60,965 nt of DNA from Mariniflexile gromovii (GTDB taxonomy: Bacteria; Bacteroidota; Bacteroidia; Flavobacteriales; Flavobacteriaceae), in contig NZ_JAGJCB010000021.1 of the NCBI RefSeq assembly GCF_017814435.1, positions 1-60,965 on the forward strand, written 5' to 3'. The notes below the pieces were generated by a model. That model was not told where the DNA came from. It did no database searches and was given only the letters and a program-made list of their open reading frames with translations. This document shows positions 39,776-60,370 of the stretch, one piece after another. Made by a program: the position numbers and the translations under genes. Position 1 is the stretch's first letter. The number at the start of each line of letters is the position of its first letter.

Positions 39776-41614
39776 TTAAAACTTTGTTGATAGAATAGTA
39801 ATTCCTTTTGAATTTAGTAGCATGTCTTTTCCCCAAATAAACACATCGTTATTCACAATATTTTTCAAAGTTTTTCCATATAAACATATTTCTTCAAAAT
39901 GTTCCAGATTAATAGTTATTGGTTCTTCATTTTTGTTGATAATAACAGCTACCGTTTCATTTTCAAAAATTCTAAACAATAAATACGTGCTATTAAATGG
40001 AGCAAAATGGATGGTTTTTCCTTTGTGTATGGCTTTACTTTTTTTACGATACAGCAATATTTGTTTTATAAAACCTTGCATATCTATTTGCGCATCGGTT
40101 AAACCTTTTCCTGTAAACGCATTTACGGCATCGCCTTCCCAACCACCTGGAAAATCACTACGAATTAAACCGTGATCGCCTGGGTTTGCGGAATCGTTCA
40201 TTAAAACTTCGGTGCCGTAATAAATTTGCGGTATTCGAGGTAAAGTTAAAATATAACCCACTGCCATTTTATTGCTCAATAAATCTTCATTTAATTGGGT
40301 AAAAATGCGGCTCATATCATGGTTATCGGGAAAAACCATAATGTCTTTTGGTGTTGCGTAGTGAAAGTCGTTTGCCAACCCTTCATACATTTTAACCAAG
40401 CCTGTGTCCCAGTTTTCTTGTTCATTTAAAGCGTTTACAATTTGACGTTGCATTGCAAAATCCATAGGGGATTTTAAGTTAGATTTATAACCATCCCTAT
40501 TAATAGCGCCTTTTTGCCAATATCCAATAATTAAAGGGTTGTAACTCCATTCTTCGCCAACAATATTAAAATTGGGGTATTGTTCCATGATAGCACCCGC
40601 CCACCGGCTCATAAACTCTTTATCAGAATATGGATAGGTATCTTGACGAATACCACCTAAATTGGCAGTTTCAATCCACCAAATACTGTTTTGAATGAGG
40701 TAGTTTGCCATAAATGGGTTGCGTTGATTTAAATCGGGCATCCCAGACATAAACCAACCATCATTCATTTGTTCACGGTCTTTTCTTGAAGCGTAAATAT
40801 CTTGGTTAATGGTACGTCTGTGATTGGATGTAATGATGGCTTTTTTATCCCACGAATCTTTGTTTTCTTCATAGTGATCCTGATAATTAACCCAATCATG
40901 AAATGGTAAATCCTTCATCCACCAATGTTCCAATCCGCAATGGTTTGCCACTTGATCCATAATAAGTTTCATCCCTTTTTCCTTGGTTTTATGTGCCAAC
41001 TCTAGATAATCTTCTAAAGTTCCAAACCGAGGATCGATTTCATAAAAATCGGTCATGGCATACCCATGATATGAACCACTGGGCATATTATTTGTTAATA
41101 CAGGGCATGACCAAATGGCGGTAAATCCCATACTTTCTATATAATCCAAATGATTGATAATTCCTTTAATATCGCCACCATGTCGCGCATAAGGATTGCT
41201 TCTATCAATGGTTTTTTCTAATAAATCTTCATTAATTTCGTTGGAAGGATTTCCTTTTGAAAATCGATCTGGGGTGATAAGATAGATAACATCTGAACTA
41301 TCAAACCCTACAAAATCTTCAGCAGGTTTTTTTCTCGATTTCAGTTCGTAGTTTTGTTCTATAACATCACCATTATCCAACTTAAATACAATATTGAATG
41401 CACCTGCCCTGGTTGTTTTATCTATTTCTAAATCTATAAATAAGTAATTATCACTATCGCCTTTATGTACACTTTTTATGGTTACACCCAAATAATTTAT
41501 TTCAGGTATAGCCATAGATATCATTGGGTGCCTTACCAATAACTGTAATTCAGAATTTTTAAACCCTACCCACCAATTGGAAGGCTCTATACGTTCAATA
41601 TCATTTCGTTTCAC
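39776..41614 (-). CDS. GH13 family glycosidase, cyclomaltodextrinase/neopullulanase-like
   Basis: 612 residues from a GTG start at 41614; no ATG lies upstream before a stop. N-terminal beta domain (1-100) of cyclomaltodextrinases, then a (beta/alpha)8 barrel with D325 (GGIRQDTYPY), E354 (IVGEEW) and D433 (FPDNHD). These hydrolyse alpha-1,4 or 1,6 linkages in maltodextrins or pullulan. No signal peptide is seen, so it appears cytosolic. Last gene of the PUL, 238 bp after glpF. An alpha-glucanase in a beta-glucan PUL is unexpected. Confidence 0.9.
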   Translation of the reverse strand: MKRNDIERIEPSNWWVGFKNSELQLLVRHPMISMAIPEINYLGVTIKSVHKGDSDNYLFIDLEIDKTTRAGAFNIVFKLDNGDVIEQNYELKSRKKPAEDFVGFDSSDVIYLITPDRFSKGNPSNEINEDLLEKTIDRSNPYARHGGDIKGIINHLDYIESMGFTAIWSCPVLTNNMPSGSYHGYAMTDFYEIDPRFGTLEDYLELAHKTKEKGMKLIMDQVANHCGLEHWWMKDLPFHDWVNYQDHYEENKDSWDKKAIITSNHRRTINQDIYASRKDREQMNDGWFMSGMPDLNQRNPFMANYLIQNSIWWIETANLGGIRQDTYPYSDKEFMSRWAGAIMEQYPNFNIVGEEWSYNPLIIGYWQKGAINRDGYKSNLKSPMDFAMQRQIVNALNEQENWDTGLVKMYEGLANDFHYATPKDIMVFPDNHDMSRIFTQLNEDLLSNKMAVGYILTLPRIPQIYYGTEVLMNDSANPGDHGLIRSDFPGGWEGDAVNAFTGKGLTDAQIDMQGFIKQILLYRKKSKAIHKGKTIHFAPFNSTYLLFRIFENETVAVIINKNEEPITINLEHFEEICLYGKTLKNIVNNDVFIWGKDMLLNSKGITILSTKF

Positions 41615-41852
41615 TATTATAAAAATTTTATGGCTTTAATTTTAATCCACTAAACAGTAAATATAAAACCTTAGCAACTTAATAAATATAATACAACTAT
41701 TATTATTTGAAATGAAATTTCATATATACAATCTATTTTTAATAAAATCTTTAAATGAAGTACCTAAAAAAACACTTTTGGCAATATTCACTGGATACTA
41801 TGTTTTATAAATAATTAGTATCAAAATAAAAATTAAAAAAAAACATTTCTAA

Positions 41853-42581
41853 TTACGACAAAGCCAACATTAAAAAAGCTGCCATAGAAGCCCCGATAAT
41901 AGGGCCCAAAATAGGAATCCAGGAATAACCCCAATCACTTGAAGCTTTATTTTTAATAGGAAGAAGTGCGTGCATAATTCGTGGACCTAAATCCCTCGCC
42001 GGATTAATAGCGTACCCTGTTGTACCACCTAATGACAAACCTATAGCCCAAACCAAAAAAGCAACGGGAACAGCACCTAAAGAACCTAAGCCTATTATGG
42101 TTTGTGTATCATTAATAGTTGCATTTGTAAAATATAGAATGGTGAAAATCAATACAAAAGTACCCACGATTTCACTAATTAAATTTGAAACCGTATTCCG
42201 AATTGCCGGTGCTGTACAAAAAACCGCTTTTTTGGTAGCGCCATCATCAGTAGCCTCGAAATGGTTTTTATAAACCAACCAAACAGTTGAAGCACCTAAC
42301 ATGGCACCTATCATTTGTGCTACAATATAAGAAGGTACCGACTCCCAAGGAAATTTACCAGCAATAGCTAACGCAATACTAACCGCAGGATTAATATGAG
42401 CACCACTATATGGCCCAGTTACAACCACCGCTACATAAACAGCCAATGCCCAACCTGCTGTGATAACAATCCAACCACTATTATTACCTATTGTTTTATT
42501 TAAAACGACGTTGGCAACTACGCCACCTCCTAATAAAATTAGTAAAGCTGTCCCTATAATTTCTGCTATAAATGGTGTCAT
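41853..42581 (-). CDS. glpF: Glycerol uptake facilitator (aquaglyceroporin)
   Basis: 242 residues with six membrane helices. Two NPA half-helix motifs, HINPAVSIAL and AINPARDLGPRIMHA, are present; the Asp after the second NPA (NPARD) marks glycerol-conducting rather than pure water channels. It imports glycerol by facilitated diffusion. It is part of the minus-strand series after glpK (106 bp). Confidence 0.95.
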   Translation of the reverse strand: MTPFIAEIIGTALLILLGGGVVANVVLNKTIGNNSGWIVITAGWALAVYVAVVVTGPYSGAHINPAVSIALAIAGKFPWESVPSYIVAQMIGAMLGASTVWLVYKNHFEATDDGATKKAVFCTAPAIRNTVSNLISEIVGTFVLIFTILYFTNATINDTQTIIGLGSLGAVPVAFLVWAIGLSLGGTTGYAINPARDLGPRIMHALLPIKNKASSDWGYSWIPILGPIIGASMAAFLMLALS

Positions 42582-42678: not shown

Positions 42679-42687
42679 TTATTTTTA

Positions 42688-44181
42688 TTACAATTTTGAC
42701 CAATATTCCAAAGCATCAATAGCTTTATACCAACCTTTAATTTCCTTATCAATGATATCTCTTTCTGTCGTTGGTTTAAAAGACGTATCGGTTTGCCATA
42801 TTTCCTGAATTTCCTCAGCACTTTCCCAATAACCAACAGCTAATCCCGCTAAAAATGCTGCACCCATAGCAGTCGTTTCCACCACTTTAGGACGTACTGT
42901 TACCGTATTCAACACATCTGCCTGAAATTGCATAAGGGTGTTATTTACCGTAGCGCCACCATCAACCCGTAACTCTTTTATAGAGATCCCCGAATCGGCT
43001 TCCATCGCTTTTAATACATCCATGGTTTGATACGCCATAGATTCTATAGCAGCACGTGCTATATGGGCATCGGTACTACCTCTAGTCAACCCAAAAATAG
43101 TTCCTTGTGCATGTTGGTTCCAATGTGGCGCTCCTAATCCTGCAAATGCTGGCACAAAATAAACCCCATCAGAACTTTTAACGGAGCCCGCTAACTTTTC
43201 AACATCATCAGAGGTTCTTATTATTTTCAAACTATCGCGCAACCACTGAACCACAGCGCCAGCAATGAAGATACTGCCTTCTAAAGCGTAGTGGGTTTTT
43301 CCATTAATTTTCCACGCTACTGTGGTTAATAAGTTGTTTTTTGAAACTATGGGTTTCTCCCCAATGTTCATCAACATGAAACAGCCTGTGCCATAGGTAT
43401 TTTTAACCATGCCGGGTTTGGTACACATTTGCCCGAATAAAGCAGCTTGTTGATCGCCTGCTATTCCAGAAATTGGAATGTTGGCATCATAAAACGTCGA
43501 TTTTGTATGCCCATATACTTCGCTAGATTGTTTAACTTCTGGCAACATACTTTTAGGAATGGTGAGCAACTCTAGCAACTCATCATCCCAATCCATGGTA
43601 TTGATGTTGAACAGCAAGGTTCTTGATGCATTGGAAACATCGGTTACGTGTTGATCGCCTTTGGTGAAATTCCAAATCAACCAGGTATCAATAGTTCCTA
43701 AAATTAAGTCTCCCGCTTCGGCTTTTTTTCTTGCACCTTCTACATGGTCTAAAATCCATTTTACTTTGGTGCCCGAAAAATAGGAATCAATTACCAATCC
43801 TGTTTTTTCTCTTATCAAATCACTTTTACCTTGCTTTTTAAGCTCATCGCAATAATCGGAAGTTCTTTTATCTTGCCACACAATAGCATTGTAAACAGGC
43901 TTTCCGGTGTTTTTATCCCAAACCACAACCGTTTCACGCTGGTTGGTAATTCCAATAGCCGCCATGTTTTCAACATTCAAACCTTTTTTTGCAATAGCTT
44001 CGGCTGCAACACCAGCTTGTGTGGACCAAATTTCATTAGGGTCGTGTTCCACCCAACCTGGTTTTGGAAAATATTGGGTAAATTCTTTTTGTGCTACAGA
44101 TACGATGCTTCCTTTTTTGTCGAAAACAATAGCTCGGGAACTGGTTGTTCCTTGGTCTAGGGCAAGTATATATTTTTCCAT
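42688..44181 (-). CDS. glpK: Glycerol kinase
   Basis: 497 residues, the standard length. FGGY-kinase nucleotide loop DQGTTSS (9-15), family signature [23 protein letters not shown], and the late [14 protein letters not shown]. It phosphorylates glycerol to sn-glycerol 3-phosphate using ATP, trapping glycerol that enters through GlpF. It lies between glpD and glpF in one orientation, so the three form the complete aerobic glycerol route. Confidence 0.97.
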
Positions 44182-44297: not shown

Positions 44298-45836
44298 TTA
44301 CAATACATATTGATTTGCTATTTTGGTACATTCATTAATTTGCTGTAATTCCCATATATCATCTTTACCTAATTCATTTGCTAATATTTTGGTTACCATA
44401 GGAATTATTTCTAAAGTAGCTTTAGCATCTAAAAACAGTGTACGAACTCTTCTTGCCAAAATATCTTCCACAGTTCTTGCCATTTCATATCGAATGGCCC
44501 AAATAATTTCTGCTTTGGTATAAGGAAGCCGTGGGTGTAGTGTATCTCCTAATTCTGGAGTTTCCCTGATTAATTCTTGAATAGCAGCCTTATCACTTCC
44601 ATAAATATATTGATGCTGTGTTTTATCAATTGAATCCATAGCCCCATGGATTTTTACACCTTTTGTTTTACAGGGTTTACTTTCTAATTTCCCAATGGAA
44701 ATAGCTTTATTCACGGTGTCTTGAGCCATACGTCTATAAGTTGTCCATTTACCGCCCGTTATGGTAATCAATTCAGAATTTGAAACAATAATTTTATGGC
44801 TTCTTGAAATTTCTTTGGTTTTTTCAGACTTATTTTTGGGTGCTGACAATGGGCGTAAACCTGCAAAAATGCTCAACACATCTGCCCTACTTACCATTTT
44901 TGTTAGATAACTGTTTGCTGTATCGATAATGAAATCTATTTCTTCATCTAAAGCTTTGGGCTCTAAACTATGGCTATCAAGCAAGGTATCGGTAGTTCCA
45001 ACCACTATTTTATCATGCCACGGCACTAAAAACAATACCCTGCCATCGTTGGTTTTTGGAATCATAATCGCATCGTTTCCTGGCAAAAATGATTTATCTA
45101 AAACCAAATGTATGCCTTGACTTGGGCGCACCATGTTTTTTGCTTCAGAATTATCCATTTTCAGAATTTCATCAGTAAAAACACCTGTAGCATTTATAAC
45201 CACTTTAGCGTTTAAGGTATAGGAAACTTTTGTTTCAGTATCTTCTGCCACCACGCCATTTACTATTCCTTTGCTATTTTTTGTTAGCTGATTTACTTTA
45301 AAATGATTTAAAACAGTCGCTCCGTGCTCTATAGCCGTTTGTGCTATATTTACTGCTAATCTGGCATCATCAAATTGACCATCATGATATACCACACCGC
45401 CTTTAAGTTTTCCGTTTTTAATGGTACTTAATCTTGAAAGTGTTTCTTTTTTATTAATTCGAATGGAGGTTCCAAAACTTAATTTACCTGCCAAAGCATC
45501 GTAAATTTTAAGTCCGATTGTATATTTAATCGTATCAAACCAATTATAATTTGGAATGATAAAAGACTGATTATTTGCCAAATGAGAAGCATTTTTTAAC
45601 AACAAACCTCTTTCGTACAACGCTTCTTTAACCAAATCGATGTTGCCTTGTGCCAAATAGCGCACCCCGCCATGAAGCAATTTTGTACTCCTACTCGAGG
45701 TGCCTTTTGCAAAATCCACTTGTTCCAATAACAGTGTTTTAAACCCTCGCGTGGCACTATCTAAAGCAACGCCCAAACCTGTGGCACCACCTCCAATAAT
45801 TATCACATCCCAATTGGTATTTGCTTCCAATTGCAT
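44298..45836 (-). CDS. glpD: Glycerol-3-phosphate dehydrogenase (FAD, quinone-linked)
   Basis: 512 residues from the ATG at 45836; the open frame continues to a TTG 39 bp upstream, without a better signal. FAD-binding loop VIIIGGGATGLG (11-22), then SRSTKLLHGGVRYLAQGN, the flavin signature of GlpD. Middle NATGVFTDEI and LVPWHDKIVVGTTDT. It oxidises glycerol 3-phosphate to dihydroxyacetone phosphate at the membrane, feeding quinones. It follows the GH3 gene by 69 bp on the same strand. Confidence 0.96.
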   Translation of the reverse strand: MQLEANTNWDVIIIGGGATGLGVALDSATRGFKTLLLEQVDFAKGTSSRSTKLLHGGVRYLAQGNIDLVKEALYERGLLLKNASHLANNQSFIIPNYNWFDTIKYTIGLKIYDALAGKLSFGTSIRINKKETLSRLSTIKNGKLKGGVVYHDGQFDDARLAVNIAQTAIEHGATVLNHFKVNQLTKNSKGIVNGVVAEDTETKVSYTLNAKVVINATGVFTDEILKMDNSEAKNMVRPSQGIHLVLDKSFLPGNDAIMIPKTNDGRVLFLVPWHDKIVVGTTDTLLDSHSLEPKALDEEIDFIIDTANSYLTKMVSRADVLSIFAGLRPLSAPKNKSEKTKEISRSHKIIVSNSELITITGGKWTTYRRMAQDTVNKAISIGKLESKPCKTKGVKIHGAMDSIDKTQHQYIYGSDKAAIQELIRETPELGDTLHPRLPYTKAEIIWAIRYEMARTVEDILARRVRTLFLDAKATLEIIPMVTKILANELGKDDIWELQQINECTKIANQYVL

Positions 45837-45905
45837 TATGAGTGTTTCTCTTTTAAAAATATTGTTCTCTTTCAATAGTTATTTTTTGATGTGATTTTAT
45901 GTTTT

Positions 45906-48230
45906 TTATTCTGTCACTGAAAATGTTGCTTTTAATTTAGCGTTTGAATCGCCTCCGACCCATACATTAAAATCGCCAGGTTCAACCTCCCATTTTTTGT
46001 TGATGGTGTAAAACTGAAGCTTTTCAGCATTAATTATAAAGTTAACGGTTTTTGTTTCACCAGCTTTAATCATTATTTTTTTGAAGTCTTTTAATTCTTT
46101 TATTGGACGTGTTAAACTTCCAAATAAATCTCGGATATATAGCTGAATCACTTCTTCACCATCTCTAGTTCCTGTATTTGAAACTTCAACAGATAATTTG
46201 ATTTCTCCGTTTTTTGCGATTTCTTTTTTATCCAATTTCAAGTTTTTATATTCAAAAGTGGTATAGCTCAACCCAAAACCAAAAGGATATAAAGCGGTTT
46301 TTGGTGCATCTATATAACCCGAATACGTAACATGACTTGGGCTATAAGGCCTACCTGTATTTTTTTGGTTGTAATATAAAGGTTCTTGCCCTACGTTATG
46401 TGGAAATGAAACCGGTAATTTACCCGACGGATTATAGTCTCCAAACAATACATCGGCAATGGCATTACCTGATTCTGAACCTAAAAACCAACATTCTAAA
46501 ATAGAAGGAATATTTTTTGCTGCCCAAGAAATATCCATGGGTCTTCCGTTCATTAAAACAATTACCACGTTTTTATTCACTTTGTAAACGGCTTCCAATA
46601 ATTGTTGCTGTACACCGAAAAAACCAATATTAGTCTGACTTCTACCCTCGCCCGTTTGAAAAGCATCCTCTCCTATTGCCAACAAAACAACCTCAGCTTT
46701 TTTAGCGGCTTCAACAGCAGCAGGAATACCCGAAGTATCCGTATCATTAAATTTTAAAGGATGTAAAAATTGGTTTTCTCCAGGTTTTACGGTAGGTATG
46801 GTTAACTCAGCTCCCTTTTCATAATAGACTTTGGTTGTTTTACCTACGGCATTTTTAACACCTTCTAAAAGTGAAACTGCCGAATTGTATGTACCTTTTG
46901 CTCTCCAGTTTCCTAGCGGTGCATCTTTATCGTTGGCAAGCGGCCCGATAACTGCAATACTTTTTATGCTTTTGGAAATTGGTAACAGTTTCGTTTCATT
47001 TTTAAGTAAAACGATGGATTTTTTTGCACCATCGCGAGCAATGGCCAAATGTTCTTTGGTGTAAACATCGTTTTTTTCGCGTTCTTCATTGCAATATTTA
47101 TAAGGGTCATCAAACAAACCTAATTGAAATTTCAACCGTAAAACACGCTTTACGGCATCATCCAATTGAGCCATAGTTATTTTATTTTCTTTCAACAAGG
47201 TTTCTAAATGTGCTTCATAAGCATACGATTCCATATCCATATCGCTACCGGCATTCAACGCTATTTCACTGGCTTGTTTTTTATCTTTGGCATAACCGTG
47301 TGCTATCATTTCTCCAATAGAACCCCAATCGGATACTACAAAACCATTCCAACCCCAATCCCTTTTCAAAATATCTCTTTGCAGCACTTTATTTCCTGTG
47401 GAAGGAATGCCATCTATATCGTTAAACGAATTCATAAATGTAGCCACACCAGCCTCTGCCGCCGCTTTAAATGGTGGCAAAATGGTGTTATGCAATTCGT
47501 ATTCACCAATATTTACAGTATTATAATCCCTTCCAGCCTCTGCAAATCCGTAGCCCGCAAAATGTTTTGCACATGCGGCAATAGTGCTTGTTGAAGATAA
47601 ATCGTTTCCTTGAAAGCCTTGAATACGAGCCACCCCTATTACAGTATTCAAATAAGTGTCTTCACCAGCACCTTCCATAATTCTGCCCCAGCGTGCGTCT
47701 CTAGACACATCAATCATGGGTGCAAAGGTCCAGTGGATCCCTGAAGCAGCAGTTTCTTTAGCAGCAATGGCAGCGGTTTGTTTGATGATATCTAAATCCC
47801 AACTGGCGCTTTCACCCAGTGGAATTGGGAAAATGGTTTTGTAACCGTGAATGACATCATACCCAAAAATTAATGGTATTTTAAGTCTGGAATGTTCCAT
47901 AACTATTTTCTGGGTTTCCCGAATGGTTGCTACTGAAGCGATGTTCAACATGGAACCAACTTCGCCATTTTTAAGTTTGTCTAATTTATGCTGATCGCCA
48001 TTAGAGGATGACGGACCAGTAGCATCCCACTTACCGCTGTATTGTACCAACTGTCCAATTTTTTCATTCACACGCATAAGTGCTAAAACAGAATCTACTT
48101 TTTGTTCTGTTCTTGCATCTAAATGACTGACTGCATAATCATGCTTTTCACTAGTGACACGTTTCTTAAAGCTATATAATAAAACAGCTATGAGTAGTAT
48201 TGGAATGAATAATAGGATTTGTTTTTTCAT
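45906..48230 (-). CDS. bglX: GH3 beta-glucosidase (BglX-like)
   Basis: 774 residues from the ATG at 48230, preceded by a typical A-rich leader; the ATG at 48254 adds eight basic residues. A single N-terminal membrane anchor (ILLFIPILLIAVLLYSF) suggests periplasmic anchoring. Substrate and nucleophile motifs: AKHFAGYGFAEAGRDY and GFVVSDWGS (D301). Likely acid/base E528 (QTGEGRSQ). A C-terminal Fn3-like domain covers the last 90 residues. It removes glucose from beta-linked oligosaccharides. It follows the sulfatase gene closely. Confidence 0.94.
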   Translation of the reverse strand: MKKQILLFIPILLIAVLLYSFKKRVTSEKHDYAVSHLDARTEQKVDSVLALMRVNEKIGQLVQYSGKWDATGPSSSNGDQHKLDKLKNGEVGSMLNIASVATIRETQKIVMEHSRLKIPLIFGYDVIHGYKTIFPIPLGESASWDLDIIKQTAAIAAKETAASGIHWTFAPMIDVSRDARWGRIMEGAGEDTYLNTVIGVARIQGFQGNDLSSTSTIAACAKHFAGYGFAEAGRDYNTVNIGEYELHNTILPPFKAAAEAGVATFMNSFNDIDGIPSTGNKVLQRDILKRDWGWNGFVVSDWGSIGEMIAHGYAKDKKQASEIALNAGSDMDMESYAYEAHLETLLKENKITMAQLDDAVKRVLRLKFQLGLFDDPYKYCNEEREKNDVYTKEHLAIARDGAKKSIVLLKNETKLLPISKSIKSIAVIGPLANDKDAPLGNWRAKGTYNSAVSLLEGVKNAVGKTTKVYYEKGAELTIPTVKPGENQFLHPLKFNDTDTSGIPAAVEAAKKAEVVLLAIGEDAFQTGEGRSQTNIGFFGVQQQLLEAVYKVNKNVVIVLMNGRPMDISWAAKNIPSILECWFLGSESGNAIADVLFGDYNPSGKLPVSFPHNVGQEPLYYNQKNTGRPYSPSHVTYSGYIDAPKTALYPFGFGLSYTTFEYKNLKLDKKEIAKNGEIKLSVEVSNTGTRDGEEVIQLYIRDLFGSLTRPIKELKDFKKIMIKAGETKTVNFIINAEKLQFYTINKKWEVEPGDFNVWVGGDSNAKLKATFSVTE

Positions 48231-48266
48231 TTTTTTGCGCTTGTTTCTATCCATCGGACATAACTT

Positions 48267-50011: not shown

Positions 50012-50848
50012 CTATTTTAAAGTAAATTCAACATACACCGGAAAGTGGTCCGACGGATATTTCAACTCTTTAGAATCACTCAAAACCGCTTGTTTGTTTA
50101 CCTTAAGGTTTTCAGATTTTGATATAAAAACGTAATCAATCTTTCGGGTTACCGCTTCATTAAATTTAAAACCATTGAATGTTCCGTTAGGCCCAAACGT
50201 TAATTTGGCAGCTGTTTCGGTATTCAGCATATCTTCCAATAAATTTTTAATCAGCAAACTATTCAGTTCTACATTAAAATCGCCCATCAAAATCACAGGA
50301 TAATTTTTGGTATTCACTTCCACCATTTTTTTCTGGATTTGCTTGATACCGTTTAACTTTGCCTGCTCGCCCACATGATCTAAATGCGTATTGAAAACCC
50401 AAAATTTCTTTTTGGTTTTTAAATCGGTAAACAAACCATAGGTGCAAATTCTTGGATAAGCGGCATCCCAACCTTTTGAAACTTTTTCAGGTGTTTCAGA
50501 AAGCCAAAATGTGTTTTCGTTTTCAACCTTAAACTTTTTGGTATTGTAAAATATGGAAGAATGCTCCCCTTCACTGCCGCCGTCCCTTCCTAAGCCAATA
50601 GTATTATAATTTTTTAAGGCTTGTTTTAAGTCACTCATTTGGTTTGGTCTTGCCTCCTGTACCCCTAAAATATCTGGAGCAAAAAACAGCACTTGCGAAC
50701 TTAAAAAGTCTTTTCTGTGTGTCCATGCATTTTCACCATCGGAAGCCACATCCAAACGAATATTATACGTCATAGCGCTAAAATTTTGACTTTGGCAACT
50801 TGTAACGCTTAGCATAACAATGAGTAATAATCCTAAATATTTTTTCAT
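50012..50848 (-). CDS. Endonuclease/exonuclease/phosphatase (EEP) family lipoprotein
   Basis: 278 residues from the ATG at 50848, which begins a lipoprotein signal (LIVMLSVTSCQSQ, Cys18); the frame is open upstream without a better start. EEP signature: MTYNIRLD, GVQEARPNQ, NTHLDHVG, MGDFNVE, KIDYVFIS and SDHFPVY, all metal-site residues present. Such surface lipoproteins act on phosphodiesters or phosphomonoesters, for example of sphingolipids, nucleotides or glycans. It starts 4 bp after the GDPD-GH16 stop, so the two are translationally coupled. Confidence 0.9.
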   Translation of the reverse strand: MKKYLGLLLIVMLSVTSCQSQNFSAMTYNIRLDVASDGENAWTHRKDFLSSQVLFFAPDILGVQEARPNQMSDLKQALKNYNTIGLGRDGGSEGEHSSIFYNTKKFKVENENTFWLSETPEKVSKGWDAAYPRICTYGLFTDLKTKKKFWVFNTHLDHVGEQAKLNGIKQIQKKMVEVNTKNYPVILMGDFNVELNSLLIKNLLEDMLNTETAAKLTFGPNGTFNGFKFNEAVTRKIDYVFISKSENLKVNKQAVLSDSKELKYPSDHFPVYVEFTLK

Positions 50849-50852
50849 ATGC

Positions 50853-52436
50853 TTATTCTTTTTTTTGAAAAACTCTAACGTAATCAATCATCATTTTTTG
50901 AGGAAACACACTGTCGTCAATTCCTTTTTGTCCACCTAACATACCACCAACGGACACGTTCAATATTAAATGAAACTTCTGGTCGAATGGCCATTCCGCT
51001 GTTGTTTTATGCTCGTTTTCAATTTGATTATAAACCACATCATCTAAAATAAAATCCATTTTTTCTGGTGTCCATTCTAAAGCAAACACATGAAAAGTAT
51101 CATAAGGCTTGTCTATGAATATTTTTTTGCCTCTTTCGGTGCCAATCATGTGGTTATAGGCTTTGGTATGGATGGTTCCGAATATAGAATCGGGATTAAA
51201 ACCCACATGCTCCATAATATCTATTTCGCCACTTTCTGGCCAACCTACTTGTTTTCTGTTTTCACCAAGCATCCAAATGGCGGGCCATAAACCAACGCCT
51301 TTTGGCAATTTTGCTTTCACTTCTATACGTCCGTATTTCCATGATGCCAATCCATCAGTTTTTAATCGTGCCGAGGTATATTGTGCGGTATCAATTTCGG
51401 CAACATATTTTAACCAACTTTTCTTCTTTAATTCCTCGTTACCATAATCTTTATTGGCAATTTTCTCTTTATGGGCTTCAATAATTAAATGACCGTTTTC
51501 TACTCTAGCGTTTTTTAAACTATCGGTAAAATATTGTTTTTCTTGGTTGCTTATAAAGCCATAATCGTAAGCCCATTTGGTGTTATCGGGTTTGCCTTTA
51601 TAATTAAACTCATCGCTCCAAACCAACTTGTAACCTTGTTTTGTTGGGCTCTTTGCTATTCTTTCAAATAATAATTCGGGCTCATCGGTCGTGATAAAAT
51701 CAAAATCGTTTGCCAATAACCAATCCATATCTTCAGTGGTATTGGCTACCCAAGCATTCAATATCAATCCATGTTCTTTAGCACCATCAATCCATTGCGG
51801 ACGTATTTTATACTTATAAACTAGGTAGTCCATACCCGTTATGCCATCTTCTTTTAAACGTTCGGGTGTTTTAGAACCATCTAAATATTGTGTTTTAGCA
51901 TTTGGATCTAGCTCTTTTACTTTTTTTAGAATTTCATAACTAAAACTGATGTATGTTAATATGAAAGGTTCCGCATTTAATGCTTTAACCATTTTCACCA
52001 CTTTCTCTGCAATAACCAAATTTTGTCCTTCTGTTTTAGAAGGTTTTATTTCGCATACCAAACCTGTACCTGTATTGTTTTGCATACCCACCAATAGATA
52101 TTGTTCTAAAGTTGGCAACGTTTCACCATTAGAAAGTTTGTGTTTGGATAATTCTGCATAGGTGGTTTCTTCTACAACCAAATTGTTATAATCGGCATCG
52201 TGGGTAACAATAAGTACATCGTCCGAAGTCATTCTAACATCAAACTCAGACCCTACACAGTTAAATTCAATAGCACGTTTTAATGATGCTATGGAATTTT
52301 CCGGGAGATTATTCGTTTTCCATGCGCCACGGTGTGCAATTACAGGATTATCTGCAAAAGCAACCATATCCTTTTGAAAAGTGGCTTTACAGGAAATAAA
52401 ACCTATTACTACTATACATATAAATAAATACCGCAT
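50853..52436 (-). CDS. GDPD-GH16 fusion lipoprotein
   Basis: 527 residues. Lipoprotein signal (VIGFISCKA, Cys16). Residues about 30-262 form a glycerophosphodiester phosphodiesterase domain: IAHRGAW (H35, R36), GSEFDVR (E64, D66), VTHDA (H79), CEIKP (E129), and DFITTDEPELL at its end. It splits glycerophosphodiesters to glycerol 3-phosphate and an alcohol. Residues about 268-527 form a GH16 beta-glucanase domain with ESGEIDIMEHVG (E404, D406, E409), as in laminarinases. Both active sites look intact, and no linker longer than a few residues separates them. It sits between SusD and the EEP gene in the PUL. Confidence 0.92.
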   Translation of the reverse strand: MRYLFICIVVIGFISCKATFQKDMVAFADNPVIAHRGAWKTNNLPENSIASLKRAIEFNCVGSEFDVRMTSDDVLIVTHDADYNNLVVEETTYAELSKHKLSNGETLPTLEQYLLVGMQNNTGTGLVCEIKPSKTEGQNLVIAEKVVKMVKALNAEPFILTYISFSYEILKKVKELDPNAKTQYLDGSKTPERLKEDGITGMDYLVYKYKIRPQWIDGAKEHGLILNAWVANTTEDMDWLLANDFDFITTDEPELLFERIAKSPTKQGYKLVWSDEFNYKGKPDNTKWAYDYGFISNQEKQYFTDSLKNARVENGHLIIEAHKEKIANKDYGNEELKKKSWLKYVAEIDTAQYTSARLKTDGLASWKYGRIEVKAKLPKGVGLWPAIWMLGENRKQVGWPESGEIDIMEHVGFNPDSIFGTIHTKAYNHMIGTERGKKIFIDKPYDTFHVFALEWTPEKMDFILDDVVYNQIENEHKTTAEWPFDQKFHLILNVSVGGMLGGQKGIDDSVFPQKMMIDYVRVFQKKE

Positions 52437-52588: not shown

Positions 52589-54229
52589 TTAATTATTGTA
52601 ACCATCATTTTGAGGGTAGTTAGGCCCAAATAAATCGATATCATCTTGAAAGATGGGCATATTTATATAATGGTCTTTCCAATTTAATCTAGAGTCTTGG
52701 GCACCGTTATAATACGTTGGGTAATAAGGACCATCTCCAGAATATGTTCTCATTTGATAGTTCATTACTTCTTGTCCGAACCTTTTTAAAGTAAACCAAC
52801 GTTGTCCTTCAAAAGCCAATTCGCGTGCATTCTCGTCTAAAATATCTTGTAATGTTAAACTGGTAAATTCTGCTGCTTTGGCTCTTTTTCTAATAGCATT
52901 AAAATAAGGTAAAGGATCTCCGCTACCAGATCTCAATATGGCTTCAGCGGCTATTAAATAGGTTTCCGCCAATCGATACACCATAATATTACTTCTTTGT
53001 GTATAGGAATTAGGATCGTCATCCTCTTGAGCAAACTTAAGGCAAGAAGGCGATATAAAACGATAATAATTATTCACTTCGGAAGCACTTGGAGTTGTAC
53101 TAGTAGACGTTTCTCTACGTCTGAATGCAGTTATTTGTTGTCCTGATCTAGGGCCTTTATTGTAATAGTATTTTAATCTGAAATAGGTATCATCATCTCT
53201 TGTGTCATTTGGATCCTGTTCCAAAAGACCTAATAAATAACGATTTGGTCTAATACGCGCAAAGCCTCTTCCTCCTTGAGATATATCAGAATCAACTTCG
53301 GCACCACCATCTAACTGGAAGTATTGGGCTGTATAATATGCATTAACCATATTGGCACCACCACCACCTAACACATCATCTTTAGCTTGAATAACAAATA
53401 ATTGTTCTGAGTGATTTCTATCGCCTTTAAATACATCAGCAGTAGTAGGTACTAATTTATGAGGACTATTAGGGTTTTCTATAACATCTAACGCTTGCGC
53501 TTTGGCTTCTGCCCAATTGCCTTCAGTCATGGCCACTACGGCTTTAACATGTTTAGCTGTTCCTTTAGATACACGGCCAAAAGTTACATTCCAATCCAAA
53601 TGCTCTATAGCAAAACTTAAATCACTATTTAACAATGCATATATTTCTTCTTTTGAAGATTTATCTTGAATAACAATAAAGGCATTATCAACTGTTACAG
53701 ATTCTGTAGTTACATAAATGTTATTATACATTCTGTATAACATAAAATAAGCTTCGGCCCTAAAAAATTTGGCTTCTGCAATAATTTGATTTCTGGACGC
53801 TTCACTTACACCTTTAACCACTTCTGCCGCATTGATAATATCGGTGGCTTTGGATGCTATTTTATAATAATTTTTCCAAAATAGCCTTGACATAAATTGC
53901 GCTCCCAAATCGCCACTAGGTGCAATATTTCTTGTGTATCTTCCTATATTACCTGCATAACCAGATCTGGTTAAACTTAAATCAGCTAAAGCGGATAAGA
54001 TTACCCCACCCATATAATCTTGTTCATTTATATCATAACGATCTCTGTTAAAATTGTATAAACTTACAACACCCGCTTGTAACCCAGCTTCTGTGTTGTA
54101 CACATAACCAGAATCAATTAAGGTACTTGGTTGTTCTTCCAAAAACTCCTCGCACGATACCGTTGTGAAAAGTGCTATAAATACCAGCAAACAAGCTGCT
54201 GTCCTTTTATAAAAATGTTTTGTATTCAT
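52589..54229 (-). CDS. SusD/RagB family surface glycan-binding lipoprotein
   Basis: 546 residues. Signal with Cys26 (TTVSCEEFLEEQP). Tetratricopeptide-like SusD fold: YYKIASKATDIINAAE, AEAKFFRAEAYFMLYRMY, then FNAIRKRAKAAEF, ARELAFEGQRWFTLKRFG and a C-terminal RLNWKDHYINMPIF. It caps the SusC channel on the cell surface and binds the polysaccharide. It directly follows SusC (20 bp). Confidence 0.97.
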   Translation of the reverse strand: MNTKHFYKRTAACLLVFIALFTTVSCEEFLEEQPSTLIDSGYVYNTEAGLQAGVVSLYNFNRDRYDINEQDYMGGVILSALADLSLTRSGYAGNIGRYTRNIAPSGDLGAQFMSRLFWKNYYKIASKATDIINAAEVVKGVSEASRNQIIAEAKFFRAEAYFMLYRMYNNIYVTTESVTVDNAFIVIQDKSSKEEIYALLNSDLSFAIEHLDWNVTFGRVSKGTAKHVKAVVAMTEGNWAEAKAQALDVIENPNSPHKLVPTTADVFKGDRNHSEQLFVIQAKDDVLGGGGANMVNAYYTAQYFQLDGGAEVDSDISQGGRGFARIRPNRYLLGLLEQDPNDTRDDDTYFRLKYYYNKGPRSGQQITAFRRRETSTSTTPSASEVNNYYRFISPSCLKFAQEDDDPNSYTQRSNIMVYRLAETYLIAAEAILRSGSGDPLPYFNAIRKRAKAAEFTSLTLQDILDENARELAFEGQRWFTLKRFGQEVMNYQMRTYSGDGPYYPTYYNGAQDSRLNWKDHYINMPIFQDDIDLFGPNYPQNDGYNN

Positions 54230-54249: not shown

Positions 54250-57200
54250 TTATAAATTAACTTTTACTCCAAATGTTAAACTTCTTGCATCTGGATATCC
54301 TGTATCCGCACTAGAAAAAGTGTTTCTTATATTTACTTCTGGACTATACCCTATGTAATCTGTTTTAGTCCATAAATTTGTTGCTGTTACATAAAACTTA
54401 ATTTCTTCAATGCTGAGTTTTGTAAAAACAGATTGTGGCAACGTGTACCCTAAACTAAGGGTTCTAAGTCTTATATATGAAGCGTCTTTAACACCCAATG
54501 AATTTAAAAATTGAGGTGGCGACGTGTAACTAGGTCTTGGATAGGTTGTTGATGGATTTTCGGGAGTGTAATAAGGTACTTTTACCCCATTTACTCTACT
54601 TTGCAATGTACCACCATTATTGAAATCGGTTAAAAACGGGTTTACTCTGGTAGCACCTTCTACGGCATAAAAATCGACTAACAAATCAAACCCCTTGTAA
54701 GATACTGTTGAAGAAAGCGAGCCAAACCAGTCTGGATTAGGGTCTGTATAAACGATATCCTCTTGGGTTATTTTACCATCATTATTCACATCTTTAACTC
54801 TAATATCACCAGATCTAAGATTTGGTTGTGGTATTGCAGAATCTGGATTTGCTTGTGGTGCATTTGCAAAATCATCTCCTTCTTGATAGATGCCATCAAA
54901 TTGATAGTGTCTAATAACCCTGCTTGGTTGCCCAACATAATAATTATAGGCATTGTCTTCTAAAACAGGATTACCATCACCATCATTATAAAGCTCTATC
55001 AATTCATTTTTATTATTAGACCAATTGGTAGTAACAGACCATTTAAAATCATCGGTATTAATCAAATTGGCTGTTAAGCTTAACTCAATACCTGAGTTTT
55101 GTAATTCGCCTGCATTAAAAAATGTATATTGATAACCGGTGATAGAAGGCACTGGTCTTCTTAACAACAAATTGGTTGTTCTTGAATCATAATACTCAAT
55201 GGAACCTGTTAAGAACCTGTTGAATAATGCATAATCAAGACCTAAATTTAAGGTTGTTATTTTTTCATATTTCAAATCTAGGTTAGGCAAAACTACAGAA
55301 GGCGAATACCCAGATGCTGTTTCACCATCAAAAATATAATTTTGACCTTCTGCCGTAAAAAGTGATGTGTAAGCTTGTTTTAAACCATTAACTAAGCTAC
55401 CATAACTGGCTCTAAACTTTAATTCTTGAATAGCATCTACATCTTCTAAAAAACTTTCATTGTGAATTTTCCATGCGAATGAAGCGGCAGGATTATGTGC
55501 CCACTTATTTCCCGATGCATTAACTGAAGCGCCATCTGCTCTGTACGTTGCTGAAAACAAGTATCTATCCATTAAGTTATAACGTGCTCTTCCCATAAAC
55601 GATGCATTTCTTTGAGAGGTTTGATCGCGTTCTACCGAAACAAGTCCAATGGCATTTGTAATACCATTATAGCCTAAGCTTTCATTTGGAAACCCTGTTG
55701 CTTGCGTAAAAGTTCTAGAGAATTTATCTTCTTGAGAAGATTGTACTAATGTTAAATCGAACTTATGGTCTGCATTGAATTCTTTATCATAAGTTAAAAT
55801 ATTTTCAATTAAATACGATTCTCTTAATTGATTGTCAATTCTTGCGATACCTCTGTCTGCATCACCCGCAGAACTTAAAGAAGATTGATATTGGCCGCGT
55901 TCAGAGTTTTTTCGCGTTAAATTGGTTTTTAATTGATATTGTAAGTTTTTAGTAATTTGCCATGTAGGCGTTACGTTTATTACAAAGTCATTCCCTTTTT
56001 CATTGTTGGTTTGTTCGCGTAAATTCCATAAAGGGTTTGTTGCACTACCAAGTTCACCATCTGGAAATTGGGTTATGCTACCATCGGGATTGTAAGCACT
56101 TCCCAATGGGGAAAATGTTATAACGTTAACCGCCGCAGCTCTGTCTATGTCATCATTCAACAGATTCAAATCAAAATTAACAGAGAACTTGTCATTAATT
56201 TTTTGATCTACATTCAATCTTAAATTTTTTCTTGCATAGCTAGAGGTAGGTATGATACCGTCTTCTTTAAAATAGTTTATACTTCCGTACACTTTTGTTA
56301 ATTCAGTACCACCAGCTACACTAATAGACTGACTGTTAATAGTTCCAGTTCTTAACAATTCTTCTTCCCAATCAACAAAATTATTGTTGGCAATATTATT
56401 TAACTCTACAGAAGTAAACGCCACTGTTTCACCAGGGTACGCATCGTTAGCATCGTCCGCCCTTAAAGCTTCCCTTCTTAACTGCGCAAATTCCTGTCCG
56501 CTATATACATCAAAATTGCGTTCAATATTTTTTGTGGTAACATAGCCATGATAAGAAACATTTACCTTCCCTACAGTACCTCTTTTAGTGGTTATCAAAA
56601 TAACACCATTAGCACCTCGAGACCCATAAATAGCTTGTGCAGAAGCATCTTTAAGAACTTCAATTGATTTTATATCATCCGAATTGATATCTTCAATACC
56701 TCCTTCTCTAATAATACCATCTACAACGTAAATAGCGCTTGTGTTACCTTCAATAGAACTGCGACCTCTAAATATAACTTCAGAACTACCTCCTGGTCTT
56801 AAGGTACCACCGCCAACTTCAACTTGCAAGCCCGCAATTCTACCTCTAAGCATTTCGGTAACATCGGATGTTGGCGTCATTACGGCTTTAGATAAATCGG
56901 CTGTTCCCACAGCATTTACCAAATCGCTTTTTCTTTGTGTACCATAACCTACCACAACAACCTCATCTAAAGTACTGGCATCTACCGCTAATAAAACATT
57001 TATTGTATTTGAAGTAATTGCTACATCTTTAGTTTTAAAACCTATATATGATATGGTTAAGGTTGTTGCGCTATTGGCAACCGATATTGAAAATTTTCCA
57101 TCAAAATCTGTAGACACACCATTGGTAGTTCCTTTTACAATTACCGAAGCTCCTGGTAATGGCATATTATCGTCTGCAGATAATACCGTTCCAGTTATTG

Positions 57201-57294
57201 TTTTTTGCGATTGTGCCATGGCTACAACCGAAGCCAGAAAAAACAATAATGGAATTAGGATTTTAATTTTTTGATTAAATAATTTTAGTTTCAT
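54250..57294 (-). CDS. SusC/RagA TonB-linked outer-membrane transporter
   Basis: 1014 residues from the ATG at 57294; a TTG 27 bp upstream is in frame, but overlaps the promoter box. Signal peptide to about residue 28; carboxypeptidase-D-like N-terminal extension (about 32-105); TonB box and plug start LDEVVVVGYGTQRK (109-122); beta-barrel to the last strand SLTFGVKVNL. It imports oligosaccharides with energy from TonB. The partner SusD is next. Confidence 0.97.
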   Translation of the reverse strand: MKLKLFNQKIKILIPLLFFLASVVAMAQSQKTITGTVLSADDNMPLPGASVIVKGTTNGVSTDFDGKFSISVANSATTLTISYIGFKTKDVAITSNTINVLLAVDASTLDEVVVVGYGTQRKSDLVNAVGTADLSKAVMTPTSDVTEMLRGRIAGLQVEVGGGTLRPGGSSEVIFRGRSSIEGNTSAIYVVDGIIREGGIEDINSDDIKSIEVLKDASAQAIYGSRGANGVILITTKRGTVGKVNVSYHGYVTTKNIERNFDVYSGQEFAQLRREALRADDANDAYPGETVAFTSVELNNIANNNFVDWEEELLRTGTINSQSISVAGGTELTKVYGSINYFKEDGIIPTSSYARKNLRLNVDQKINDKFSVNFDLNLLNDDIDRAAAVNVITFSPLGSAYNPDGSITQFPDGELGSATNPLWNLREQTNNEKGNDFVINVTPTWQITKNLQYQLKTNLTRKNSERGQYQSSLSSAGDADRGIARIDNQLRESYLIENILTYDKEFNADHKFDLTLVQSSQEDKFSRTFTQATGFPNESLGYNGITNAIGLVSVERDQTSQRNASFMGRARYNLMDRYLFSATYRADGASVNASGNKWAHNPAASFAWKIHNESFLEDVDAIQELKFRASYGSLVNGLKQAYTSLFTAEGQNYIFDGETASGYSPSVVLPNLDLKYEKITTLNLGLDYALFNRFLTGSIEYYDSRTTNLLLRRPVPSITGYQYTFFNAGELQNSGIELSLTANLINTDDFKWSVTTNWSNNKNELIELYNDGDGNPVLEDNAYNYYVGQPSRVIRHYQFDGIYQEGDDFANAPQANPDSAIPQPNLRSGDIRVKDVNNDGKITQEDIVYTDPNPDWFGSLSSTVSYKGFDLLVDFYAVEGATRVNPFLTDFNNGGTLQSRVNGVKVPYYTPENPSTTYPRPSYTSPPQFLNSLGVKDASYIRLRTLSLGYTLPQSVFTKLSIEEIKFYVTATNLWTKTDYIGYSPEVNIRNTFSSADTGYPDARSLTFGVKVNL

Positions 57295-57318
57295 AGAATG
57301 TAATTTTAAGTTTAGTTT

Positions 57319-57326
57319 CAAAAGTA
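57319..57326 (-). promoter_or_regulatory. Candidate susC promoter -7 element (TACTTTTG)
   Basis: Matches TAnnTTTG, 24 nt before the ATG at 57294. The upstream 260 bp to the regulator gene is gene-free and presumably holds the regulator's operator. Confidence 0.45.
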
Positions 57327-57589
57327 TAGTTCTGCTCGATTTTAACTTTTACATAAAAATTAAGCATATGTAAACTTAACCCCTAAAATTGATAATTCCA
57401 TAATTTTAACCCCGACAAAAAACGAACATCGTAATTTAAAAAGGTGTTAACTTTTAAATATTAAGCCAAAAGCCCTATAAATACGGTAAAGTTATAATTA
57501 GAAAAATTTTATACAGAAACCCGCGAAAACATTAGCTTTTCGGCCCTTGTAGTGGTAATGTCGTGGTAAAAAACAGGCTTGTAGTGTTA

Positions 57590-60370
57590 CTAGAAGTTTA
57601 AGATATAGTTAACTAGCCCACTATCATGCTCTAAACCTAATTTCTTTCTTAACCTGTAACGTTTAGTTTCAACGCTTTTAATAGATATGTTAAGCAAGGG
57701 TGCCATTTCTTTTGAAGATAAATTCAACCTTAAATAGGCACAGAAGCGCAAATCGTTGGGAGTTAAATCGGGGTGGGATTGTTTTATTTTGTCTAAAAAG
57801 TCTTTATCGGCATTATTGAAAGCTTGTTCAAAAAACGACCAATCTTTGGAATCATTCAAATTGTTATCTATAAGTTTTAATGCAGCCATATTATCGGTGT
57901 GCTTATTTTTTTTCAGTTCCTTTTTTATGCTGTTTAAAACTTCATTCTTTTTTATAATACTCATTGTTGAAATTGCAAGCTCTCGGTTTTTACTTTCAAT
58001 GTCCTGATTTAACTTTTCATTTTTAATACTTGTTATTAATTGCTCGTTTTCTAATTGCTTGTGCGCATGCAACTTCTTGTAATACTTCTTATAGGTTTTA
58101 TGCATAAATAATGAAAAACCAAATATTGAAACCAAATACAACAATATGGCTGTATTTGATAAAAACCAAGGTCTGTTTATTTTAAAATTGTAGCTTATAA
58201 CATTACTAGACAATTTATTTCCAATTTTGGCACGAATGTTTAAGTTATAGTCTCCAAAAGGCAAGTTTTCAAATATAAGTTCAGACTTGCTGTTCCATTC
58301 ACTCCATTGGTTATACCTTCCATTAAGTTTATACTGATATTGAACAACATTGTACTTATTGTAAACAGGAACACTGTAATTAAAGGTTATGGAGTTGTTT
58401 TCATATTCGAATACACCTGAACTATTAATATCTACTGCTATATTATCGGTTTCAACGGTATTCAACTCAATAGAATTAAGGATGAGTTGATAGCTTTCAT
58501 TTTTATTTAATTGGGAAATATCTAAGGTAAGATACCCATCGGTTATACCAATTAGGTAATTATTGTTTTTAAGGTGCGAAATATTTTCGTAACCTATTTG
58601 TCCTTTTCGTAATGGATATGGAATGGCTACTTTATTAATTTTTAGCTCGTTTGTTAAATCGTTTACATCTACATAACTAATATTATCGTTGGAAAAAGCC
58701 CAAAGCTTTTGCGTATCATCTACAACCAATTTACCTGATGCATACTCCGATTGTGTAACTATAGTACTAAGAGTCGAATCCTTTACAAAACTTTTTTTTG
58801 TGGCATCAAAAGCAAGTACCCCATCTTTATAGGCGTATAAAATGCGGTCTTTATATTTAATTAGGCTTGAATTTTTATCGATAGGAACTGCAGAATCTAT
58901 AAAAACATTTTTGGTCTTGGTGAAATTTTCATCAATTTTAAGTCTAAAAACACCTTTATAACCATGACTTACCCAAACCTCATTATGGTTTGTTATTTCA
59001 AAATATCTTGCTGAATTATTAAAACCTTCAATTTTGCTTTTTAGTTTCCAATTTCCGTTTTCTTTAGCCAATACATTCAATCCGTTATAGTTGCCTTCTA
59101 AAAGCATGTTTTCTTTATTAGGAATGGGTTTAAAGCCCCAGGTTCCGGGTATGCTTGTTACCAAAATAGCTTGGTCTTTTTTTATAATGAATGTTCCGGA
59201 ATGATGCCCGCAAAACAACTCGTTATTATACTGAAACAAGCTCCAAACTTGCCCAGAAGTACCAGCTACGAATTTAAAAGGGTCTTCTTGTGAAAATGCT
59301 TTTTTATAAAACAAACCTTGATTGGTACCCAAATACAAAATACCATTAAAAATGGCAGAGGCATATATGGTTCCTATTTTACCTTCATCATCATTAAAAA
59401 CCCGTATGGGCGATTTTATGTTGATACAATTAATGCCATTATCCAAACCAACCCATAAATTTTCGTCTCTATCTTCAAACACGCATAGTGCTGTGTTATT
59501 ACTAAGTCCATTGCTTCTGTTTAGTTCGTATTCTATACGCCCTGTCTTAGATAAATAAACAATACCATTTTTTATGGTACCTATTATAAAGCTTTTGTCT
59601 TTTAGTTGAATGCTGTTAAAAACATTCATTTTTTTTATGGATTGTTGAGCAGGAGCATCCCATTCTGACACCTTATTATTAATTAAAGTATAAAAACCCG
59701 CTCCACGAGTCTGTATAAGTAAGCCTTCTTCTATTGAAAAAATGTTTACTACCTTATCATTTTTAAAAAGTTGGTCGTCTAATATTAACTTAGGTTTACC
59801 TGCTACAATTTTATAAATACCTTCATTGGTAACATGATAATAAATAACATTTTGAATATTAAAAACTCTTGAAATTCCGTTTTTAGAATTCATTATGGAA
59901 TTTGCACCGGTAACCGGGTTATAAAAATAAATTCTGTTGAAGGATTGAAATAAAACCCATTCATCATAAGTAATAATATTCCAAATATGTTCATCTTCAA
60001 TCATGGTCTCCTTAAATTTAGAAACCAAACTTTGGTACTGTAATTTACCAAACACATCACGTTCCCAAAAACCAAATTCCATGTAACATCCTGTGTAAAT
60101 TCGATTTCCAACTACATTAACAGCTCTAATAATGGTATTGTTTGGAGATGGATACATAGTCCATTTAGCACCATTATATTCTAAAAGCCCTTCATTGTTG
60201 GCTACATAAATAAATTTATTAGGAGCTTGAGAAATCATCCAGTTCTGATTTTCCCCGTCATAATCTGTTGGGGTAAACTTTTGTATAGGAGGCAATTCTT
60301 GTACTAATAAACTATTGGGCACAAAAAATAAAAGAAGAAAACACAAACCTATATGGATGATACTTTTCAT
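57590..60370 (-). CDS. PUL regulator: two-component-type propeller, Y_Y_Y and LuxR-type HTH
   Basis: 926 residues. Signal peptide; periplasmic two-component regulator propeller repeats (about 30-650; for example EDRDENLWVGLDNGINCI); a Y_Y_Y domain (about 655-735); one membrane helix at about 739-757; coiled coil (about 765-825); and a cytosolic C-terminal LuxR-type helix-turn-helix (about 866-926: LTPNDLRFCAYLRLNLSSKE, then SIKSVETKRYRLRKKLGL). No histidine kinase or receiver domain is present. The protein can thus sense glycan outside and bind DNA inside by itself. It precedes susC, on the same strand. Confidence 0.9.
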   Translation of the reverse strand: MKSIIHIGLCFLLLFFVPNSLLVQELPPIQKFTPTDYDGENQNWMISQAPNKFIYVANNEGLLEYNGAKWTMYPSPNNTIIRAVNVVGNRIYTGCYMEFGFWERDVFGKLQYQSLVSKFKETMIEDEHIWNIITYDEWVLFQSFNRIYFYNPVTGANSIMNSKNGISRVFNIQNVIYYHVTNEGIYKIVAGKPKLILDDQLFKNDKVVNIFSIEEGLLIQTRGAGFYTLINNKVSEWDAPAQQSIKKMNVFNSIQLKDKSFIIGTIKNGIVYLSKTGRIEYELNRSNGLSNNTALCVFEDRDENLWVGLDNGINCINIKSPIRVFNDDEGKIGTIYASAIFNGILYLGTNQGLFYKKAFSQEDPFKFVAGTSGQVWSLFQYNNELFCGHHSGTFIIKKDQAILVTSIPGTWGFKPIPNKENMLLEGNYNGLNVLAKENGNWKLKSKIEGFNNSARYFEITNHNEVWVSHGYKGVFRLKIDENFTKTKNVFIDSAVPIDKNSSLIKYKDRILYAYKDGVLAFDATKKSFVKDSTLSTIVTQSEYASGKLVVDDTQKLWAFSNDNISYVDVNDLTNELKINKVAIPYPLRKGQIGYENISHLKNNNYLIGITDGYLTLDISQLNKNESYQLILNSIELNTVETDNIAVDINSSGVFEYENNSITFNYSVPVYNKYNVVQYQYKLNGRYNQWSEWNSKSELIFENLPFGDYNLNIRAKIGNKLSSNVISYNFKINRPWFLSNTAILLYLVSIFGFSLFMHKTYKKYYKKLHAHKQLENEQLITSIKNEKLNQDIESKNRELAISTMSIIKKNEVLNSIKKELKKNKHTDNMAALKLIDNNLNDSKDWSFFEQAFNNADKDFLDKIKQSHPDLTPNDLRFCAYLRLNLSSKEMAPLLNISIKSVETKRYRLRKKLGLEHDSGLVNYILNF

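Follow-up and report, generated by a model that had tools for sequence, protein, structure and literature searches.

The locus analyzed here raises the question of why a polysaccharide utilization locus (PUL) would join beta-glucanases to a GDPD phosphodiesterase and to the genes of glycerol catabolism, and whether these parts serve the breakdown of one and the same polymer. The window, by which we mean the whole 60,965-nucleotide stretch of DNA analyzed, is an entire contig of the 4.28-Mb draft genome of Mariniflexile gromovii (G000 in the family sample below). Eleven minus-strand ORFs, identified from the ORF list and translations of the window, run from position 60370 downwards in the order regulator, SusC, SusD, GDPD-GH16, EEP, sulfatase, GH3, GlpD, GlpK, GlpF and GH13 (Table 1). 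Domains were called by Pfam and NCBIfam profile searches, with scores read against the model cut-offs, and ORFs and both profile sets agree with the eleven same-strand genes and named domains of the first-pass annotation. SusC and SusD are adjacent, and GH16, GH3 and sulfatase genes lie on the same strand, as expected of a PUL.

Table 1. Genes of the locus in the window and related Pedobacter features
Feature	Position	Strand	Evidence
PUL regulator, sensor propeller / Y_Y_Y	57590..60370	-	weak Pfam matches; C-terminal LuxR-type HTH by eye
SusC outer-membrane transporter	54250..57321	-	TIGR04056 797 bits, cut-off 368
SusD-like lipoprotein	52589..54229	-	PF07980 + PF14322
Fused GDPD-GH16 lipoprotein	50853..52436	-	PF03009 + PF00722; 7ww4 match
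EEP-family lipoprotein	50012..50887	-	PF03372; 4c1r match
Sulfatase lipoprotein, CSPSR motif	48267..49745	-	PF00884, 198 bits
GH3 beta-glucosidase, BglX type	45906..48254	-	NF011678 784 bits, cut-off 666
GlpD, glycerol-3-phosphate dehydrogenase	44298..45875	-	PF01266 + PF16901 (DAO, DAO_C) over cut-off
GlpK, glycerol kinase	42688..44181	-	TIGR01311 755 bits, cut-off 590
GlpF-type MIP channel	41853..42581	-	PF00230; TIGR00861 185 bits, cut-off 171
GH13 neighbor	39776..41614	-	PF00128; cyclomaltodextrinase-type N and C domains
Pedobacter GDPD-GH16 and phospholipase C-type gene	L106 6270-8642
Pedobacter GDPD-GH16 and phospholipase C-type gene	L107 11630-14002
Pedobacter GDPD-GH16 and phospholipase C-type gene	L108 11663-14035

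For comparison with relatives we used a family sample of 397 Flavobacteriaceae genomes, searched with the window's GDPD domain (orthologue threshold E up to 1e-50) and with its GlpK (E up to 1e-190, up to three candidates scored per genome); GDPD-domain orthologues were found in 30 of them, at 31 loci. Many gene labels in the relatives derive from BLAST against reference proteins, where some of the SusC and SusD references are neighboring genes taken without a Pfam check. The window's regulator, which has a homologue no more than 13 kb from GDPD at 17 of the 31 loci (the window included), scores 25.6 bits against Y_Y_Y (cut-off 26.6) and 20.6 bits against Reg_prop (cut-off 20.4), with no other Pfam match, and its C-terminus reads by eye as a LuxR-type helix-turn-helix. 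GlpD reaches 302 bits against NF008899, under the 360 cut-off of that model, and the GlpF-type channel carries, as read by eye in its translation, an NPARD motif, which we take to be that of MIP channels.

Measured by ORF ends, the gaps are 268 bp from regulator to SusC, 20 bp from SusC to SusD, 152 bp from SusD to GDPD, 266 bp from EEP to sulfatase and 12 bp from sulfatase to GH3, while the GDPD and EEP ORFs overlap by 35, or are separated by 4 bp if EEP begins at an internal ATG, likely the one near 50848. The glycerol genes begin 30 bp after GH3, or 69 bp when counted from the likely GlpD ATG near 45836, with 116 bp between GlpD and GlpK and 106 bp between GlpK and GlpF. GH13, counted in the gene set by the first-pass annotation, is set apart by 238 bp, and the stretches examined near GDPD in the 13 linked relatives described below carry no GH13 BLAST label; we accordingly rejected it as a member of the unit and treat it as a neighbor. 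Downstream of it, at 36952-39540 on the minus strand, lie two YceI genes flanking one for a 422-aa protein, which has no Pfam match and looks by eye like an outer-membrane beta-barrel. Scans for consensus promoters and for terminators came out near background (90 promoter-like sites vs. a shuffle mean of 82.8, and 15 terminator-like sites vs. 13.3 in shuffles). Above position 36000, a flavobacterial promoter pattern matches the minus strand at two sites, which fall within GlpK and GlpF, and no match lies in an intergenic gap between SusC and GlpF. A TAnnTTTG element at 57326 coincides in part with the TTG listed as the start of SusC and precedes the first ATG by about 25 bp; the ATG near 57294 is the likely start of that gene.

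The GDPD-GH16 protein, 527 aa long, is predicted to combine a phosphodiesterase domain (GDPD, about residues 30-260) with an endo-beta-1,3(4)-glucanase domain (GH16, about residues 270-525). H35, E64, D66, H79 and E129, presumably the catalytic and metal positions of GDPD (HR, ExD, HD and E), are invariant in 11 of 11 aligned fused proteins, the window's included, as are E404, D406 and E409 of the GH16 ExDxxE motif; the GDPD residues are furthermore the same letters in alignments to the solved GDPDs 3no3 and 2pz0. Across both halves (residues 29-525, E = 8e-148) the protein matches PDB entries 7ww4/7wwc, so its architecture has already been solved, although these entries are named as a beta-1,3(4)-glucanase only; a literature search by these ids found no paper mentioning them, and a second activity of the 7ww4 enzyme may have been overlooked. 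Among solved proteins, the GH16 half is nearest to beta-1,3(4)-glucanases and laminarinases; one of its matches, 6xof, is described as SCLam, an endo-beta-1,3(4)-glucanase active on both laminarin and barley glucan (PMC7961093). GDPD and GH16 share one polypeptide in 14 of the 31 loci of the family sample, and among the best 80 of 587 relatives the fusion is found in proteins that share as little as 42% identity with that of the window.

Within those best 80, 29 loci were annotated; the fused loci in named records number 21 (L089-L109, with 10-kb flanks). SusC accompanies the fusion in 12 of the 21, EEP in 10 and GlpK in 6 (Gelidibacter salicanalis, Polaribacter porphyrae, Aureibaculum marinum, A. 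flavum, an uncultured Psychroserpens and Winogradskyella echinorum), and the fused loci of Pedobacter, Niabella and Aureispira have no SusC, EEP or GlpK within the 10-kb flanks. Three Pedobacter loci (L106-L108) instead carry a phospholipase C-type gene next to GDPD-GH16, labeled by Pfam in L106 and by BLAST in L107 and L108 (75% and 80%), which hints that other phosphoester groups or lipids may be substrates there. This neighbor lends some weight to the explanation that a single regulon handles two substrates, laminarin and, separately, glycerophosphodiesters from the phospholipid head groups of the same dead biomass, with GDPD and EEP acting on small molecules; GDPD enzymes classically cleave free glycerophosphodiesters, and some GDPD PULs (G336, G373, G094 and G180) have no GH16. 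We regard this explanation as unlikely, given that fusion of GDPD to an endo-glucanase, kept over the range of identities just given, suggests a single substrate molecule, and that L106-L108 represent another setting, as no SusC homologue is labeled in the flanks examined.

The lipoprotein encoded after the fusion bears on the fate of the phosphate. Among solved proteins it is closest to 3mpr, a putative EEP protein (E = 1e-51), and to 4c1r (E = 2.5e-51), the latter being the nearest one with a functional name, mannosyl-6-phosphatase; it is probably a sugar- or glycerol-phosphate phosphatase, and its closeness to 4c1r fits the earlier proposal that it would dephosphorylate released glycerol 3-phosphate. 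Both proteins belong to the EEP family, but 4c1r is presumably part of a Bacteroides mannan system, whereas the window's EEP is paired with GDPD and GH16. That proposal had started from the lack of a visible GlpT-type transporter, which holds genome-wide: the genome yields a single GlpT-like match, of 47.5 bits where the model cut-off is 632.55, and a GlpT route for glycerol 3-phosphate is therefore unlikely. The E. coli glp regulon with glpTQ also joins an exported GDPD to GlpF, GlpK and GlpD, whereas the window, without a GlpT over the cut-off, has a phosphatase and SusCD and a GDPD fused to a glucanase; a route like that of E. coli was considered and ruled out by this lack of GlpT.

An EEP gene lies within 13 kb in 14 of the 14 fused loci of the family sample, whether glp is near or not, and phosphate removal thus looks more constant in that sample than glycerol catabolism. 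The same constancy would be expected if the locus were primarily a phosphate-scavenging system in which GDPD and EEP free phosphate from organic matter, with sugars as a by-product, but we consider this highly improbable: SusC lies near 27 and GH16 near 19 of the 31 GDPD loci (GH3 near 14), a pattern expected where the target is a sugar polymer, the window genes scanned (part of its ORFs) include none for phosphate uptake, and outside the family sample the constancy of EEP breaks down, as the named records show. The sulfatase combines a PF00884 domain with the CSPSR form, seen in its translation, of the CxPSR motif of formylglycine sulfatases. Its nearest solved relatives are proteins named kappa- and iota-carrageenan sulfatases, a resemblance that would count against a beta-glucan as the substrate.

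The connection to glycerol catabolism was assessed in the family sample from the match coordinates of the GDPD and GlpK searches. GlpK is present in 22 of the 30 GDPD genomes and lies within 12.2 kb of GDPD in 14 of these 22 (G000, G134, G070, G094, G119, G125, G133, G157, G209, G225, G244, G314, G336 and G373), vs. 0.16 of 22 expected under random placement, a figure that ignores common descent. The linkage is thus not due to chance, and chance placement of the glp genes was ruled out on these numbers. GlpK is found elsewhere, not near GDPD, in seven of the 22 (G001, G080, G143, G289, G297, G322 and G335), and in the remaining one, G047, GDPD sits on a 7.9-kb contig on which linkage cannot be judged. 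An FGGY-type kinase with 26% identity to GlpK lies near GDPD in G080. No GlpK reaches 1e-190 in eight of the 30 genomes with GDPD; among these eight and G335, five of the nine have a GlpD homologue (E up to 1e-60), two of them at 34% identity. Moreover, G323, a genome of the same genus with no GlpK at 1e-190, has the series regulator-SusC-SusD-GDPD-GH16-EEP-sulfatase-GH3 without glp. Because of this glp-free core and the eight genomes without GlpK, the glp genes are a separable add-on cassette and not an obligate part of the system. The link between glp and PUL drawn in the first-pass annotation consequently stands as a recurrent association, present in several gene orders, and falls as an obligate one: the refuting case that it had named, relatives with the core and without glp, is realized in part, yet the 14 linked genomes do not support a chance link. 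The locus is, in short, a real, recurrent PUL variant with an optional glycerol cassette.

It is also important to note that the only GlpK (at 1e-150) and the only GlpD (at 1e-10) of the window genome are the copies in this locus, so that the glp genes can also serve ordinary glycerol use. Together with the glp operons that relatives keep away from any GDPD-GH16, and with the glp-free PUL of G323, these sole copies could be taken to mean that glp is simply the ordinary glycerol pathway of the genome, its position next to the PUL being due to chance or to local hitch-hiking. We judge this to be very unlikely, since it is at odds with the observed excess of linkage and its several arrangements, with the two GlpK copies of G336 and G373, one at the GDPD PUL and the other elsewhere, and with the position of the window's glp genes directly behind GH3 and without a DeoR gene, such as is labeled in 8 of the 31 GDPD loci.

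At least four arrangements occur among the 14 linked genomes, one of them without GH16 and with another phosphatase. The glp genes are downstream of GH3 in the window and G070; DeoR, GlpD, GlpK and GlpF are upstream of the regulator in G209, G134, G119, G244, G125 and G157 (DeoR label checked by Pfam in G134 and by BLAST in the other five), with the sulfatase beyond in five of these six (not G119); and glp is directly upstream of SusC in G314. G225 has GlpK-GlpF-GDPD-GH16 at another locus, and two Arenibacter records have GlpK-GlpF-GH16 at what is apparently the same place, equated through a flanking HI0933-family gene (L114 and L053) and through matching ORF lengths (L115). Between GlpF and the HI0933-family gene, this place is empty in L075, holds GH16 in L114 and L115, and holds GDPD and GH16 in L053. 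The GH16-less PUL of G336, G373 and G094 comprises SusC, a calcineurin-like phosphoesterase, GDPD and glp, with SusD labeled in G336 and G373; as a type (L173, L175, L063 and L064, from G336, G373, G094 and G180, with PF16370/PF16371) it stands beside glp in three of four cases and represents the same logic with a different phosphatase. In a GlpK tree of 33 rows, a subset of the GlpK matches that share at least about 78% identity with the window protein save G336 (67%, a long branch of unsure placement), the linked state requires nine changes, at least four of them forced by starred branches; it shows no clustering (85 of 500 shuffles need as few), and solo glp operons are interspersed with the linked ones. 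The association of GDPD with glp has therefore arisen or been lost several times.

The remaining linked genome, G133, has glp at the 3' side or end of a larger PUL that also holds GH2, two GH16, EEP, GH3, GH31, GDSL and SASA genes. Such additions would suit a polymer of glycerol phosphate other than a glucan, for example an exopolysaccharide of bacterial origin or a teichoic-acid-like polymer that contains beta-glucosyl units, as would the GH97 gene of G336, which comes without GH16, and the GH36, SASA and PhoD genes next to glp in G047, which lie on a different contig from the GDPD of that genome; teichoic acids can be substrates of PhoD and GDPD types. In the window itself, however, the sulfatase is accompanied by GH16 and GH3 alone, and the matches of GH16 are beta-1,3(4)-glucanases and laminarinases, so that we hold a non-glucan polymer to be quite improbable. 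The G047 cluster (L070, 212-13689) has GH36, two SASA-domain proteins, PhoD, GlpD, GlpK, GlpF and GH3 pieces in a row; separate from the GDPD-GH16 contig of that genome, it may be a continuation of the same PUL.

Returning to a decorated beta-glucan, we read GH16 and GH3 as signs of a beta-glucan, the sulfatase as a sign of sulfate, GDPD and the phosphatase as signs of phosphodiesters, and the fusion as a sign that glucan and phosphodiester occur on one molecule. On these gene contents we put at about an even chance that the locus is a PUL for a beta-1,3(4)-linked glucan, or glucan-like glycan, carrying glycerol phosphodiesters and sulfate; because the fused enzyme, the likely phosphatase and glp occur together, a pairing kept in some relatives, the bacterium may feed on a glycerol-phosphate beta-glucan. 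This estimate is not lowered by the fused loci of named records that lack EEP, since the model is about loci in which the fusion comes with SusCD. We infer the substrate, the order of the steps, the substrate of EEP, protein localization and co-transcription. GH16 of the fused lipoprotein would cut the glucan backbone, and GDPD would release glycerol 3-phosphate, or glycerol leaving a sugar-phosphate; SusC/SusD would import the oligosaccharides, the sulfatase would remove sulfate, the EEP phosphatase would take phosphate off glycerol 3-phosphate or off the sugar, and GH3 would release glucose, while glycerol would enter through GlpF and be converted by GlpK and GlpD into dihydroxyacetone phosphate. 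Our best reading is that glucose and phosphate would be recovered from the polymer, joined by glycerol in carriers of glp, and that the core of relatives lacking glp would yield sugar and phosphate only. Phosphoglycerol-bearing beta-glucans do occur in nature, namely the OPG of E. coli (PMC10514313), the backbone of which is described as beta-1,2-linked with beta-1,6 branches (PMC11842490). This linkage differs from that expected for the window's GH16 and counts against the model, and no beta-1,3-linked phosphoglycerol glucan was noticed in literature searches naming phosphoglycerol.

Laminarin PULs of marine Flavobacteriia consist of SusC/SusD, GH16, GH3 and a regulator, all of which the window shares, while it adds GDPD fused to GH16, an EEP phosphatase, a sulfatase and glpFKD, none of which is known to belong to that set. 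As in the window, a GDPD gene lies inside the putative PUL PAM95095-90 of Flavobacterium IR1, together with glycoamylase, GH3 and GH43, but the parts of that report available to us mention no GH16 fusion, EEP, sulfatase or glp (PMC12758843). The same IR1 set of GDPD, glycoamylase, GH3 and GH43 lies beside SusC and SusD in G317 (glycoamylase and GH43 labeled by Pfam, the rest by BLAST). The first-pass annotation knew of no described PUL with the present gene set, and our literature search, which reached only a minority of subscription journals, likewise found none with GDPD-GH16 and glp genes. Tentatively, and with the balance of probability against us, we propose that these loci form an undescribed class of PULs for phosphoglycerol-decorated sulfated beta-glucans, a class of polymer so far unrecognized in the sea, and that a two-activity GDPD-GH16 enzyme strips phosphoglycerol from the chain that it cuts. 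The model predicts a natural glycan carrying glycerol phosphodiesters, would tie carbon and phosphorus recycling together in one locus, and suggests a role for the GDPD and EEP genes seen in PULs of Bacteroidota. A second carbohydrate-related region lies at the other end of the contig (2070-5307 and 8386-11007), where GH1, glycosyltransferase and metallophosphoesterase genes stand in a row, with a MGH1-like/GH63-domain protein further on.
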